In this document: positions 12,162 through 25,953 of the stretch, piece after piece
Numbering within the stretch: position 1 is the first letter of the stretch
How the letters are laid out: every line of letters begins with the position of its first letter
From: an uncultured Schlesneria sp.
Lineage (GTDB): Bacteria > Planctomycetota > Planctomycetia > Planctomycetales > Planctomycetaceae
Direction of reading: 5' to 3'
Assembly: GCA_903840265.1 (NCBI GenBank)
Contig: CAIMFH010000147.1
Location: 124,001-188,000 of the forward strand
Length of the DNA: 64,000 nucleotides
The notes under the pieces: model-generated
The model's input: the letters and a program-made list of their open reading frames with translations, nothing else
The model's database searches: none
What the model was told of the DNA's origin: nothing
Translations under genes and position numbers: made by a program

Positions 12162-12551
12162 GCAAAGATCTCCTCGACACTTAAGAGGCGAGCCAGCGGT
12201 CAACGCTAGCGGGAGCGACGGGGTCTTAGTTCCGAACGATCAGTCACGCTATCGATTCGATAGGCTAGCGCCAAGCAGATTAAGCGTTCGTATTCATGTC
12301 GTTTCGTCAGGTTCGCGGCAGGCGTGGCAATTCCTGGCAGGGAAAACAACGCACACAGGTGGCAAAATCAGTGGCAGCCCCGCGAATCGAAGTCTTAGTG
12401 CTGCCTGACCGATCTGCCGGCCTTTCCCTGGCGTTCGGCAACCCGAATAATCGGAAGAACGGTAGACTCGGCTCGGCAACGGCCGTTTTGCTTGGTAGAG
12501 TGATTCCGTCGAAATTGATGTTTCATCAAACTCGCTTTGGCAGGGACGCAC

Positions 12552-14078
12552 ATGGCCATTTCGACCGCACGCACGCTTCCGCCCGAACTTCGCGATGTCC
12601 AACTACGAATGGAAGAGTTGGGACGCAGTTACGGTCTCGACTTCTTCGAGACCATCTTCGAGGTGCTTGATCTCGAAGAACTGTGCATGTTCGCCGCTTA
12701 CGGTGGTTTCCCGGTACGCTACCCGCACTGGCGTTTTGGAGCAGAGTACGACGAGTTGCTCAAGACCCACATGTACGGCCTGCAACGCATCTACGAAATG
12801 GTGATCAATACCGATCCCTGCTACGCCTATCTGCTGAACACGAATGAGATGGTCGACCAGAAACTGGTGATCGCTCATGTTTATGGCCACTGTGACTTCT
12901 TCAAAAACAACGCATGGTTCGCGCAAACCAATCGCAAGATGCTCGACCAGATGGCCAACCATGCCACGCGAATCAATCGCTATGTCGATCGATACGGATT
13001 TGAGAAAGTCGAAGAGTTCATCGATGCCTGTTTGTCGATCGAAGATCTGATCGATACTCATTCGATGCACATCAAACGAGCCGACGAAGTGCAGGCGATC
13101 CCGCATGCGGCTTTGCTGCGCGATGAAGACTTTGACTATCTTCACGGATCGAATCGCTTCCCATCCAAGGGCTACATGGAATCGTTCATCAATCCCCCGG
13201 AAGTTCTGGCTCAAGAAGCCCGAGACCAGCGGGAAAAAGACGAAGCCAAGGCGAAGACGCGATCGTTCCCTGCTGAACCGCAGCGCGACGTGCTGCTGTT
13301 CCTGCTCGAACACGCTCCGCTCCGCGACTGGCAGCACGACATCCTGGCAATCATTCGCGACGAAGCCTATTACTTTGCACCGCAGGGACAGACGAAGATC
13401 ATGAATGAGGGTTGGGCCAGCTACTGGCATACCTTCCTGATGACTCGCCACGGCCTCAATGATTCAGAAGTGATCGACTACGCCGACCATCACAGCGGTA
13501 CCGTGATGATGACGCCTCAACGGATCAACCCCTATAAGATCGGTATCGAACTGTTCCGCGATATCGAAGAGCGCTGGGACCGTGGCCAATTCGGCCCCGA
13601 ATATGAAGCGTGCGAAGATTGGCGAGCGCGACAAAAGTGGGACAAAAAAGTCGGCTTGGGCCGCAAAAAAATCTTCGAGGTCCGGAAGAGTCATAACGAC
13701 ATTACGTTCATCGATACCTTTCTGACCCCCGAGTTCTGTGCGCGTCACAAGATGTTTTCGTTTGCATTCAATGATGCGACCGAGAACTACGAAATCGCCA
13801 CTCGCGAATTCGAGAAGGTCAAGATTCAGCTACTCAACAGCCTGACCAACCACGGCCGGCCGTTCATCTATGTCGTCGATGCCAACTATCGCAATCGTGG
13901 CGAATTGTACCTGGAGCACAAGTACCAGGGGATCGAACTGAAGCAGGACTACGCCGTCGATTCCCTCCGCAACCTGCATCGCATCTGGGCTCGCCCCGTC
14001 CATATCGAAACGGTGGTTGACGACAAGCCAGCGATCATCTCATTCGATGGCTCGTCGCATTCGACGAAAGCGAAGTAG
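12552..14078 (+). CDS. SpoVR family protein
   Basis: YGLDFFETIFEVLDLEELCMFAAYGGFPVRYPHWRFG...VINTDPCYAYLLNTNEMVDQKLVIAHVYGHCDFFKNN; ILAIIRDEAYYFAPQGQTKIMNEGWASYWH. Confidence 0.95.
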   Translation: MAISTARTLPPELRDVQLRMEELGRSYGLDFFETIFEVLDLEELCMFAAYGGFPVRYPHWRFGAEYDELLKTHMYGLQRIYEMVINTDPCYAYLLNTNEMVDQKLVIAHVYGHCDFFKNNAWFAQTNRKMLDQMANHATRINRYVDRYGFEKVEEFIDACLSIEDLIDTHSMHIKRADEVQAIPHAALLRDEDFDYLHGSNRFPSKGYMESFINPPEVLAQEARDQREKDEAKAKTRSFPAEPQRDVLLFLLEHAPLRDWQHDILAIIRDEAYYFAPQGQTKIMNEGWASYWHTFLMTRHGLNDSEVIDYADHHSGTVMMTPQRINPYKIGIELFRDIEERWDRGQFGPEYEACEDWRARQKWDKKVGLGRKKIFEVRKSHNDITFIDTFLTPEFCARHKMFSFAFNDATENYEIATREFEKVKIQLLNSLTNHGRPFIYVVDANYRNRGELYLEHKYQGIELKQDYAVDSLRNLHRIWARPVHIETVVDDKPAIISFDGSSHSTKAK

Positions 14079-14131
14079 TCGACTTCGCAGACATGATCGT
14101 GACTCAACGAGGACTTTCATGAGTTCTCGTA

Positions 14132-14395
14132 CTAAGCACTCCATTGCGCCAACTCGGTTTCGACAAGGTCGGGAGCTTCAATTTCGACCCGCTCGACATG
14201 CAATCCCAAAGACCGTACATCGTTAACCGCCGAATGAATCGCCGCCTGTAGCGATACGGCCTCGCGATCAAAGCCTACTCGCGCACAGCCGCCTGAGCCG
14301 GACAATGTCGCATCACTGCAATGACTGTAAAGCGATTCCGCGAGAGCGTCCGTCAGCTCAACAACCTTTAATTCCAAAGTGAATCGCCAAATCAT
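14132..14395 (-). CDS. Putative antitoxin-like partner protein (small two-gene module)
   Basis: MIWRFTLELKVVELTDALAESLYSHCSDATLSGSGGCARVGFDREAVSLQAAIHSAVNDVRSLGLHVERVEIEAPDLVE; ATG overlaps stop of the upstream frame (ATGA). Confidence 0.6.
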   Translation of the reverse strand: MIWRFTLELKVVELTDALAESLYSHCSDATLSGSGGCARVGFDREAVSLQAAIHSAVNDVRSLGLHVERVEIEAPDLVETELAQWSA

Positions 14396-14632
14396 TCTTC
14401 GTTCTCCTGTCGCAAGTGCATGCAACGATCAATCTCGCGGACGATCCGACGAGCATGATTGCCTGCATTTTGCGGTGTCGATGCGACACGCACCTTGGCA
14501 TCCAGATCGATCGTGCTGCGGGCAGCGTAACGTGGCATAGCAGTGCCCCGTTCCCCGTATGACTCGCCAACCTAAATCCAATGCATGCTGTATCGCGTCG
14601 CTGACCTCTTGCTGGGGATGATGCTCTGCCAT
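14392..14632 (-). pseudogene. HicA-like toxin candidate disrupted by a +1 frameshift near 14494
   Basis: Frame 1: MAEHHPQQEVSDAIQHALDLGWRVIRGTGHCYATLRCPQHDRSGCQ; one extra base (C14494 on +) then frame 2: VRVASTPQNAGNHARRIVREIDRCMHLRQENEE*, stop TGA overlapping ATG at 14395. Confidence 0.6.
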
Positions 14633-14975
14633 ATCTTTTCGCGCCCGCCACCCAATTCTACGATCTTTTTACACCGGACGAATAATCTACAGAATTTTCT
14701 TCTGTTAATGCGCAACAAAAATTCGCTTTTCTGCGGTCTACCATGATCCGATCTGCGTAGGTGAATTGAATGTGTTCTCGTTAAATTGAGGGGTATCTGC
14801 CAGACCGCAATCGGACGTCTGTCTGAGAGAACGACAACTCCGGAGTGAGTTTGGTTGCGTCATCGGTTCGATTTCTCATGAAATTCCAGCTCCCAAGTCG
14901 CGAGTTCAAACCAATTTCAACGTATAATTAGCGAACGCAGTCCCCTACGAAAATTCCGACGATGAAGGATTGTCG

Positions 14976-15482
14976 ATGTCCTTGAGTCTTGATCTTGCCG
15001 CCGCGCTCACCCCATTAATCGGACAGAACTTTCTGCCCGCGCAGACCGTGACTGTCGCCGACGGCAGCGGTGTTGGATTGTCCGTTGATCTGCTGAGCGT
15101 CGAGGCGTTAGGCGTGTCGTGCGAAGAGCTGCGGCTGGAAGTTCCCGCGTTGAATGCGGCGAGTCTGGATGCTCTCAAGAAGTGGGGCGATGCTCTTTGT
15201 AAGCGCATCACCTATCTGCTCGAGAACCTGGGGCCGCTCGAATATGACGCCAGCGCCAACGAAGTTTTGATTCGGTCGACTCCGCCAGACGTTGGCTCGC
15301 CCGGGACGACGAAGTATTACGAGGTGCTGCTGTCGTCGCAGGGGGCAGGTCGGTTTTCGTTGCGTCGGTTTCGAAACGATGCTGCCAATCCGGGTCGAGT
15401 TCCGGTGCCGCTGCAAGTGACGCACGAGTTACTTGCGAAGCTGATCAATGATCTGACGACCACCATTCCTGCCAAGCCGTAA
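14976..15482 (+). CDS. Conserved hypothetical protein
   Basis: Coding-like composition, MSLSLDLAAALTPLIGQNFLPAQTVTV...; followed by terminator hairpin. Confidence 0.65.
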   Translation: MSLSLDLAAALTPLIGQNFLPAQTVTVADGSGVGLSVDLLSVEALGVSCEELRLEVPALNAASLDALKKWGDALCKRITYLLENLGPLEYDASANEVLIRSTPPDVGSPGTTKYYEVLLSSQGAGRFSLRRFRNDAANPGRVPVPLQVTHELLAKLINDLTTTIPAKP

Positions 15483-23654: not shown

Positions 23655-25151
23655 TTAGTAGGTTGCATTCACCTTGCCTGCGGCGACCGCTTCGACAAGT
23701 GCCGCATGGTCGCGCTCTGTTTGGTCACCATAGGTTTCTGCAAATGTGGCCAGCGCGCTCGCGAATGCGTCGGATTTGCCGATGTACCCTGCGATCTTAG
23801 CGATGTCGCCAGTACGAGCGTGCGCACGAGCCAGCAGGACACCACAGATCCAGCACCAGAATTCAAACGGCTCACCGGTCAGCCATTCCACCGGCATGGA
23901 TGCCTTCAGGTTCTTCATCTGCCGAACGAAGTAATGCCGCCCATCGATCGTCGTATAGCCGAGCAGCGGATCACCCAGAGATTGCAGGGCGCGTTGCGCC
24001 GTGACGACCCGGCGACCTTCGTGGTCGATTCGGTAATCGACCTTCGGCAAGTAGGGCGCATGCGCTGGGGTAACAGCCTCTTTGACTTGCAGGAACAACG
24101 GATCGTCATCGCCATTGCCAAACAGCAGCAGCAAGTATGCGCGCAGCCCGACGCTGCCGACCCCCACCACGCGGTGACAAACATCGGCGACCGAGTAGCG
24201 ACGCAACATGAAACGGTGCTCGGGGGGCAGCGTCTCGGCATAGTCGACCAGTGAAGCGATCACCTTCTTTCGTGTTGCCTCATCAAGGTGCGTGAGGATT
24301 GGCGGGGCCTCGATAAATCGCCAGGTCCCGTCGGACTGACGCCCCGCCACCTTGTCCAATAGGGATTTGCTGTGGGTCCGTTGAGCCTTTGCCAGGACCT
24401 TTCTGGCGACGGCCCGAAATTTGTTGCCGACTCGAACCCCTGCCCGATTGAGCACCGCTTCGTTCCGTTCCAACTCGGCATAGGCGAACAGCGACCAGGT
24501 TTCCAGGACCCCCAGCTTCATCAGTCGCTGGACGTTCAATGCATATCCCGACACGCACCGCATCACGGCCGAACGCCGCTCCTGAAGATCGAGTCCATTG
24601 TCGCGGCCGCACACGTTGACACTGGCAACTAGCCGCTTCAAATCCCATTCCCACGGCCCAACGATCCCTTCGTCGAAGTCGTTGATATCGATCACGACAT
24701 CGAGTTGCGGCGTGCCATACATTCCGAAGTTGTTGATGTGCGCGTCGCCATCGAGCATGACCTGCGGTCCGCTGATCGGCGTCTGAGCCAGATCTGCGGC
24801 CATGACCGCACACGCACCGCGCAAAAACGCAAATGGCGACTCGGCCATGCGCTCCATCCGCAGCGGGATCAATCCCTCTTCACGTCCTGCATTGCTGGCC
24901 ATCACGGTCGATACCGGATCCGGTCGATCCGCAGGTGGCATCCACGTCGCGTGAGACTCGCGCGGTGTCTGCTGTCGCAACGCCTTCCCCTGATCGTATC
25001 GAGCTTGTGCTAAGTCCAAAGGCCTCTGGGGATCGTACGGAGCGGTTGTCTGCCAGAACTCCCGCAGTCCATCGAAGGGATGCGGAGGCTCGACAGTTTT
25101 ATCCGGCGCTTTGAGTGACTTGGCGACCCGCGTGGACGATTTCTTGGCCAT
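23655..25151 (-). CDS. DUF2252 family protein
   Basis: MVRMERMAESPFAFLRGACAVMAADLAQTP-type motif, GDAHINNFGMYGTPQLDVVIDINDFDEGIVGPWEWDLKRLVASV; VGVGSVGLRAYLLLLFG. Confidence 0.92.
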   Translation of the reverse strand: MAKKSSTRVAKSLKAPDKTVEPPHPFDGLREFWQTTAPYDPQRPLDLAQARYDQGKALRQQTPRESHATWMPPADRPDPVSTVMASNAGREEGLIPLRMERMAESPFAFLRGACAVMAADLAQTPISGPQVMLDGDAHINNFGMYGTPQLDVVIDINDFDEGIVGPWEWDLKRLVASVNVCGRDNGLDLQERRSAVMRCVSGYALNVQRLMKLGVLETWSLFAYAELERNEAVLNRAGVRVGNKFRAVARKVLAKAQRTHSKSLLDKVAGRQSDGTWRFIEAPPILTHLDEATRKKVIASLVDYAETLPPEHRFMLRRYSVADVCHRVVGVGSVGLRAYLLLLFGNGDDDPLFLQVKEAVTPAHAPYLPKVDYRIDHEGRRVVTAQRALQSLGDPLLGYTTIDGRHYFVRQMKNLKASMPVEWLTGEPFEFWCWICGVLLARAHARTGDIAKIAGYIGKSDAFASALATFAETYGDQTERDHAALVEAVAAGKVNATY

Positions 25152-25164
25152 CTCAATTCCTACG

Positions 25165-25953
25165 CTAAGGCATACTGCCAAGCATCATTTGTTGCACGTC
25201 GGCAAGTGGTTGCTGACTCACTCGCAACAGTCCTTCTGCGGGACGATCGATGTCGGCCGTCATCACGATCACCAAAGAAAAGGCCGCCGCCAGCACCGGC
25301 GTGCCGCGCAGTCGCCGAATCCCAGACATCCCGACCTGATATCCCACCGCCAGCATCGACAACATCGTGAGGACGTACACCGCCAGCCAGACCGTTCCGG
25401 GAATGTGATACTGCAATCCAATCGTCACGCGACTTTGATGCAGGTCGATTAATTCATTCAACGAGGCGACGAACAACGATCGCAACTCTGAGTCCATTTC
25501 TTCCCGGACCAGCAATTTCGCTTGAGACCAGAGCCGCCTGTGGATGTCTGCCGATGATTTCACGATCTCGTTGACATTCCTATTCGCTGTGTTCAATCGG
25601 AGATCGGCATATTCGCGCAATAGGCGACGGACTTCCAGGCCTTCTTTTTCAGGCAGCAAGTCGGCTCGCAGGTACGTTGTGCCGATGGCATTGGCTTCAT
25701 CAAGTACCAACTGCCGACGAGCGTCGAATCGGGATGAGGTCATGCCGAACGTAAAGGCGAGAATAAACGCCAATAGCCCCAGGACTGACCCCACGAGTGA
25801 CCCCAGAGGAGCTTCCGGCTCCTTTTCATGCTTATGCCGGAGCACCATTCCTGCCAGCGCGGCTCCCCCTTCCACGGCGCTCATGCAGAGCGCCGACGTG
25901 AGCACGAAAAGAGCCCACAGCGGAAGCATGCCGATCCAGTTGCCGAAATCCAT
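25165..25953 (-). CDS. DUF4239-like (bestrophin-like) membrane protein
   Basis: LGSLVGSVLGLLAFILAFTFGMTSSRFDARRQLVLDEANAIGTTYLRADLLP. Confidence 0.85.
   Translation of the reverse strand: MDFGNWIGMLPLWALFVLTSALCMSAVEGGAALAGMVLRHKHEKEPEAPLGSLVGSVLGLLAFILAFTFGMTSSRFDARRQLVLDEANAIGTTYLRADLLPEKEGLEVRRLLREYADLRLNTANRNVNEIVKSSADIHRRLWSQAKLLVREEMDSELRSLFVASLNELIDLHQSRVTIGLQYHIPGTVWLAVYVLTMLSMLAVGYQVGMSGIRRLRGTPVLAAAFSLVIVMTADIDRPAEGLLRVSQQPLADVQQMMLGSMP

Follow-up and report, generated by a model that had tools for sequence, protein, structure and literature searches.

A HicA-like gene interrupted by one extra base beside its intact partner in an uncultured Schlesneria species, and asymmetric decay of PDC-M06-type gene pairs

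The minus strand of a 64,000-nucleotide stretch of DNA from an uncultured Schlesneria sp. (the window) carries two small adjacent genes, here termed A and B, of which A can be read through only by changing frame. What is this pair, and why is one gene broken next to an intact one? The original prediction described a HicA-like toxin split by a +1 frameshift and coupled to its partner, and offered a neutralised toxin, a programmed frameshift or an assembly indel as explanations. The features of the locus are as follows.

12537–14078, plus strand: SpoVR gene (PF04293), which flanks the accessory A-B insertion on the left.
14132–14395, minus strand: gene B, 87 aa, intact; the short PDC-M06B form, with the predicted N-terminal ferredoxin-like domain only and without the C-terminal helix-turn-helix (HTH).
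14392–14493, minus strand: 3' part of gene A in the shifted frame, VRVASTPQNAGNHARRIVREIDRCMHLRQENEE, with its TGA at 14394–14392; β3 and α2 of the family fold.
14404–14408, minus strand: Shine-Dalgarno-like AGGAG, 8 bases 5' of the B ATG and within the 3' end of A.
14429–14632, minus strand: 5' part of gene A, an in-frame ORF of 67 aa ending in GACRIDTAKCRQSCSSDRPRD and a TGA at 14431–14429.
14495–14496, minus strand: one-base length difference from the sister species G405; AA in the window, a single A in G405.
14970–15482, plus strand: 170-aa gene of unknown function, right border; it adjoins SpoVR without A-B in another species of the genus, G374.

The sequence and its ORFs confirmed that A, spanning 14632 to about 14392, is divided between two frames. 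Residues 1–46 of the ORF 14632–14429 form the conserved α1-β1-β2 part of the PDC-M06A (HicA-like) protein, and the 21 residues after them are read out of frame, in agreement with the poor tail that had been noticed. The second frame lies in an ORF at 14538–14392, and its TGA overlaps the B ATG (14395–14393), again as predicted. Each half matched the family profile separately (model positions 1–44, score 47.5, E 2.4e-13; positions 44–70, score 27.8, E 5e-7) and the closest intact homologue, L010, aligned gap-free across the junction; therefore, the two frames are not a product of chance. Homologues ending at the in-frame stop without VRVASTPQNAGNHARRI, which the prediction named as a refutation, are not what the family shows. 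There is one base too many, as proposed, but comparison with G405 favours the adjoining AA (T14495/T14496 on the plus strand) over C14494 as its position, a shift that alters at most one junction residue. The AGGAG inside the 3' end of A may permit translation of B whichever A frame is read.

To which family does the pair belong? The joined A halves, whose single ORF is broken in the window, matched PADLOC PDC-M06A (E 2.6e-19, positions 4–83 of 87) and B matched PDC-M06B (E 8e-10, positions 1–85 of 174), so that the recurrent small two-gene family named in the prediction has a counterpart in a database. In PADLOC, PDC-M06 is a candidate phage-defence pair only, and its anti-phage role is putative; a literature search found no paper describing or mentioning it. 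In PHROGs, A corresponded to phrog_5923 (unknown function, 2.7e-15) and B to phrog_2620 (excisionase and transcriptional regulator, 3e-11). Searches of Pfam and NCBIfam gave no family match for either protein: Pfam HicA (PF07927) matched none of 21 A members at E ≤ 10, and Pfam HicB did not match B. A sequence search of the PDB returned nothing meaningful, and one A member matched the PADLOC 'HicA-like' model at 6e-4.

The family is widespread. A was present in 45 of 120 genomes of the same taxonomic family, and a class-wide draw of 397 genomes contained A in 88 and B in 102. Named loci belong to Planctomycetota, Alphaproteobacteria, Balneolales, Halomonas and others, and the family also occurs on plasmids (233 records) and SSU5-like phage-plasmids; a plasmid search gave no near DNA match to the window locus. 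An intact long-form pair was observed between replication/recombination genes of SSU5-like phage-plasmids in phage Cyrano (L289) and in the Escherichia coli plasmid p503829_100 (L290). The Cyrano genes, CYRAN_51 and CYRAN_50 (Escherichia phage Cyrano, the SSU5-like phage-plasmid of E. coli LF82), are annotated as HicA toxin and putative antitoxin HicB, and are listed as morons expressed above the prophage background (PMC9928086).

The predicted structures were then compared with HicAB. The model of the intact A of L010 showed an α-β-β-β-α arrangement (pLDDT 88; H8-19 E23-26 E31-36 E46-50 H56-69), which is the dsRBD-like topology of HicA (PMC10865869). In a Foldseek search of this model against 350,542 PDB chains, the best two matches were 6g26_F and 6g26_E of the Burkholderia pseudomallei HicAB complex, with probabilities of 0.91 and 0.80 and E-values of 0.17–0.19 that are not significant alone; 5yrz_B, from a Streptococcus pneumoniae toxin-antitoxin complex, ranked 12th. 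His30 (L010 numbering) was invariant in 21 A sequences and lies in the β1-β2 loop immediately before β2. In B. pseudomallei HicA, changing His24 to Ala abolishes toxicity (PMC3969222). Since topology, rank of the PDB matches and position of the His agree, though the E-values are not significant alone, and one member matched the 'HicA-like' profile, we consider A to be HicA-like, as predicted. The model of B was β-α-β-β-α-β-α, ferredoxin-like, and the 50 top PDB matches listed for it included no HicB. HicB has a partial RNase H fold (PMC10865869); by its modelled fold, B is not HicB. Many homologous B proteins have a C-terminal HTH-like extension that the window B lacks. The prediction of a HicA-like toxin-antitoxin candidate thus held in part: A is HicA-like, its toxicity being putative, its partner is not a HicB by fold, and neither protein falls in a Pfam or NCBIfam family. 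A survey of HicA (PMC10865869) makes no mention of planctomycetes or a ferredoxin-like partner.

To place the broken copy in the context of its family, 182 unique A loci were scored; in 174 of them B could be scored as well, its status being curated by eye. These 174 A-B loci comprised 28 with a disruption of A alone, 2 of B alone (L030 and L065) and 5 of both. The surveyed copies include close relatives and are not all independent, a limit on the binomial p of 9e-7 for 28 against 2; as the loci were found through A, with partial A hits included, the 19% of broken A cannot be taken as an unbiased frequency. Setting A against B locus by locus reduces the effect of sampling, and the scored domains are of similar length (68 and 74 positions). 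A was disrupted by nonsense codons (12), frameshifts (about 12) and truncations (about 10) at scattered positions. Seven of the 12 nonsense codons fell on two conserved Trp codons (L022, L059, L069, L097, L131, L138 and L182); recoding at Trp codons was considered as the source of this clustering and rejected, as TGG transitions at a plausible transition bias suffice.

Orphan genes showed the same direction. In the 397 genomes, 40 copies of B had no A within 1.5 kb, compared with 5 copies of A that lacked a B. Among 20 orphan B loci that were read, five (L276, L281, L282, L285 and L288) had the end of an A upstream, recognised by profile or by eye and in some cases weak. At L282 (G207:C11:5700-8200), the first ~20 A residues seem to continue in frame into B (HTDKDIEAAVKYAESQAAELPKSVYSFTLHL), which would be an A-B fusion through an internal deletion. 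At L271 (G103:C318:1500-3800, minus strand), an orphan PDC-M06B-type gene (nt 701-1384) lies 4 nt downstream of a classical-looking HicA-HicB pair with a GSH motif (YVPDLPGCVACGD), in the position that a third gene of a HicAB operon would take. Because orphan antitoxins are common for type II systems, as in Klebsiella (PMC7192599), the asymmetric pattern is what would be expected of a toxin-antitoxin family.

A dispensable A beside a B with another function, for example in transcription control, as the phrog_2620 label hints, would produce the same asymmetry. On this account there is no toxin-antitoxin system at all: B would be mainly a regulator, excisionase/AlpA-like in its long forms, and A a mobile-element protein decaying by drift. 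The HTH-like extension of long-form B, the carriage of pairs on plasmids and phage-plasmids, and the frequent loss of A are in keeping with it. However, intact copies of A show stronger conservation than B does (mean column identity 54% against 44%; 8 invariant columns against 4), which argues against simple relaxed constraint. In addition, A has the predicted HicA topology with a matching His, and short-form B still accompanies A though it lacks an HTH. We therefore regard a purely regulatory B with a dispensable A as rather unlikely. For the preferred toxin-antitoxin reading, we counted the PDC-M06 match, the pair in G405, the constraint described below, the fold, the His, the decay, the orphans, L271 and the Cyrano annotation; the non-significant Foldseek E-values, the lack of a Pfam HicA match and a B that is not HicB by fold were counted against it. 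On balance, it is quite probable that the pair is a toxin-antitoxin system by design.

We turn to whether the break in A is real. A syntenic locus with 93% identity over 3.3 kb occurs in G405, a sister species within the genus. Its B protein is identical to that of the window, and its A can be read in a single frame throughout; the two A genes differ in length by the one base at the junction and nowhere else. The codon changes between the two were 4 synonymous and 0 nonsynonymous in B and 4 and 1 in A, together 8 and 1, and both genes are under constraint. Divergence at fourfold sites was ~0.09 for A-B, compared with 0.28 for spoVR and 0.38 for dnaN. These low values indicated a recent break in A, and also that the pair was either acquired or exchanged once most of the flanking sequence had diverged, or is held under unusual constraint. 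The A-B segment at 14116–14656 is ~98% identical to G405, and most flanking genes are 84–93% identical. Judged from these alignments, this suggests a later transfer or exchange of the A-B module between the window species and G405.

The pair is absent from most of the genus. The SpoVR gene was present in 13 of 15 searched genomes of the genus, and in G374 spoVR and the 170-aa gene are adjacent without A-B, from which we concluded that A-B is an accessory insertion. No Rfam elements were found at the locus, and promoter and terminator patterns there were at chance level.

If the extra base were a sequencing or assembly error, A would be intact in the living organism. The full conservation of both halves, with one nonsynonymous difference from G405, and the draft state of the assembly (204 contigs) are compatible with such an error. 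The rate of indels was estimated on one contig (211 kb) against a G405 contig, covering about 98–102 conserved ORFs and ~105 kb of coding sequence. Among the compared ORFs judged real after inspection, A alone carried a clean frameshift in the genome of the window; several apparent frame splits were discounted as spurious or antisense ORFs or as different starts, and inspection at the level of single bases covered part of the splits. The window assembly is thus not riddled with indels. The only other clean break lies in G405, in a DUF2252 gene that is intact in the window (23655–25181, minus strand) and broken by an 8-base deletion in G405 (G405:C67:96771-98295). The junction in A is outside any long homopolymer, and A is broken in about a fifth of the examined copies, including single-contig genomes (L211 and L166). 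B is rarely broken in the same assemblies, a bias that random errors would not give. An artefact is accordingly improbable, and it is highly probable that the inactivation of A is real, with a recent lineage-specific frameshift the most likely source of the extra base. Of the three explanations first offered, the neutralised toxin is the one that these data support.

Could the ribosome instead restore the full-length protein by programmed +1 frameshifting? Such a mechanism would be compatible with the conservation of both frames and with the ATGA overlap through which the shifted frame meets B. However, a programmed site should be conserved, and A is encoded in one frame in the sister locus at 93% identity, in L010 as the closest homologue and in most members of the family. 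Elsewhere in the family, broken copies have their frameshifts at many different sites, and the junction has no stop-codon or slippery shift motif. Programmed frameshifting was therefore rejected as very improbable. That the two frames are separate short genes, the second starting at the internal ATG at 14538, is hardly conceivable even though such an ORF exists (14538–14392), as its first 15 residues (MPRYAARSTIDLDAK) have no family counterpart and lie across the conserved A frame, the homologous genes each encode a single protein, and no conserved separate small ORF was seen in relatives.

Here, we propose a model in which the locus is an accessory module of the PDC-M06 type, designed as a toxin-antitoxin system. 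In this model, gene A would encode a ~79-residue protein of HicA fold (dsRBD-like), most likely an RNA-cleaving toxin using the invariant His of the β1-β2 loop, and gene B a small ferredoxin-like protein, most likely the antitoxin that neutralises it. In long-form B, the C-terminal HTH would allow repression of its own operon. A recent one-base insertion after codon 45/46 would have removed β3 and α2 and left A inactive, and B, whose sequence, start codon and separate AGGAG are preserved, is probably still made. The locus would then fit what is seen across the family, namely repeated inactivation or deletion of A with retention of B. This reading as a whole, a HicA-fold toxin inactivated next to a retained antitoxin or regulator, is in our judgement probable.

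Taken alone, the locus is a modest case of one broken toxin-like gene, and the pair was already known as a PADLOC candidate. What is added is the asymmetric decay and a natural one-base comparison between two close species, one with an intact and one with a broken A. The repeated loss of A and retention of B point to a likely costly gene beside a gene worth keeping, and lead to the prediction that A is toxic and B protective. The antitoxin-only genomes provide a set for examining a possible immunity role of B. More tentatively, and with rather low probability, PDC-M06 may be a toxin-antitoxin family of its own, in which toxin-free lineages keep B against incoming elements that carry A, such as phage-plasmids, in an anti-addiction or immunity role.

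Compared with known systems, the window genes resemble the PDC-M06 pair in that both match its profiles and are adjacent on the same strand with A upstream of B, as in homologues; they differ in the frameshifted A and in a short B that covers the first half of its profile and has no HTH. The likeness to phrog_5923 and phrog_2620 consists of profile matches, and the label of the latter probably reflects the HTH half that the window B lacks. Profile matches (A 3e-30, B 3e-27) place CYRAN_51/CYRAN_50 in the family too, and they share the gene order, but have an intact A, a long-form B with an HTH-like extension and phage-plasmid carriage. With HicAB (HicA PF07927; B. pseudomallei 6g26), the pair shares an A-first two-gene operon, a small A with the predicted α-β-β-β-α topology and a conserved His in the β1-β2 loop, and a partner with or without a DNA-binding domain. 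It differs from HicAB in that A has no significant sequence match to Pfam HicA and carries extra invariant Cys and Trp residues, and in that B is predicted to be ferredoxin-like instead of having the partial RNase H fold of HicB. As a family of its own, PDC-M06 would thus combine a HicA-fold toxin with a ferredoxin-like antitoxin unrelated to HicB.
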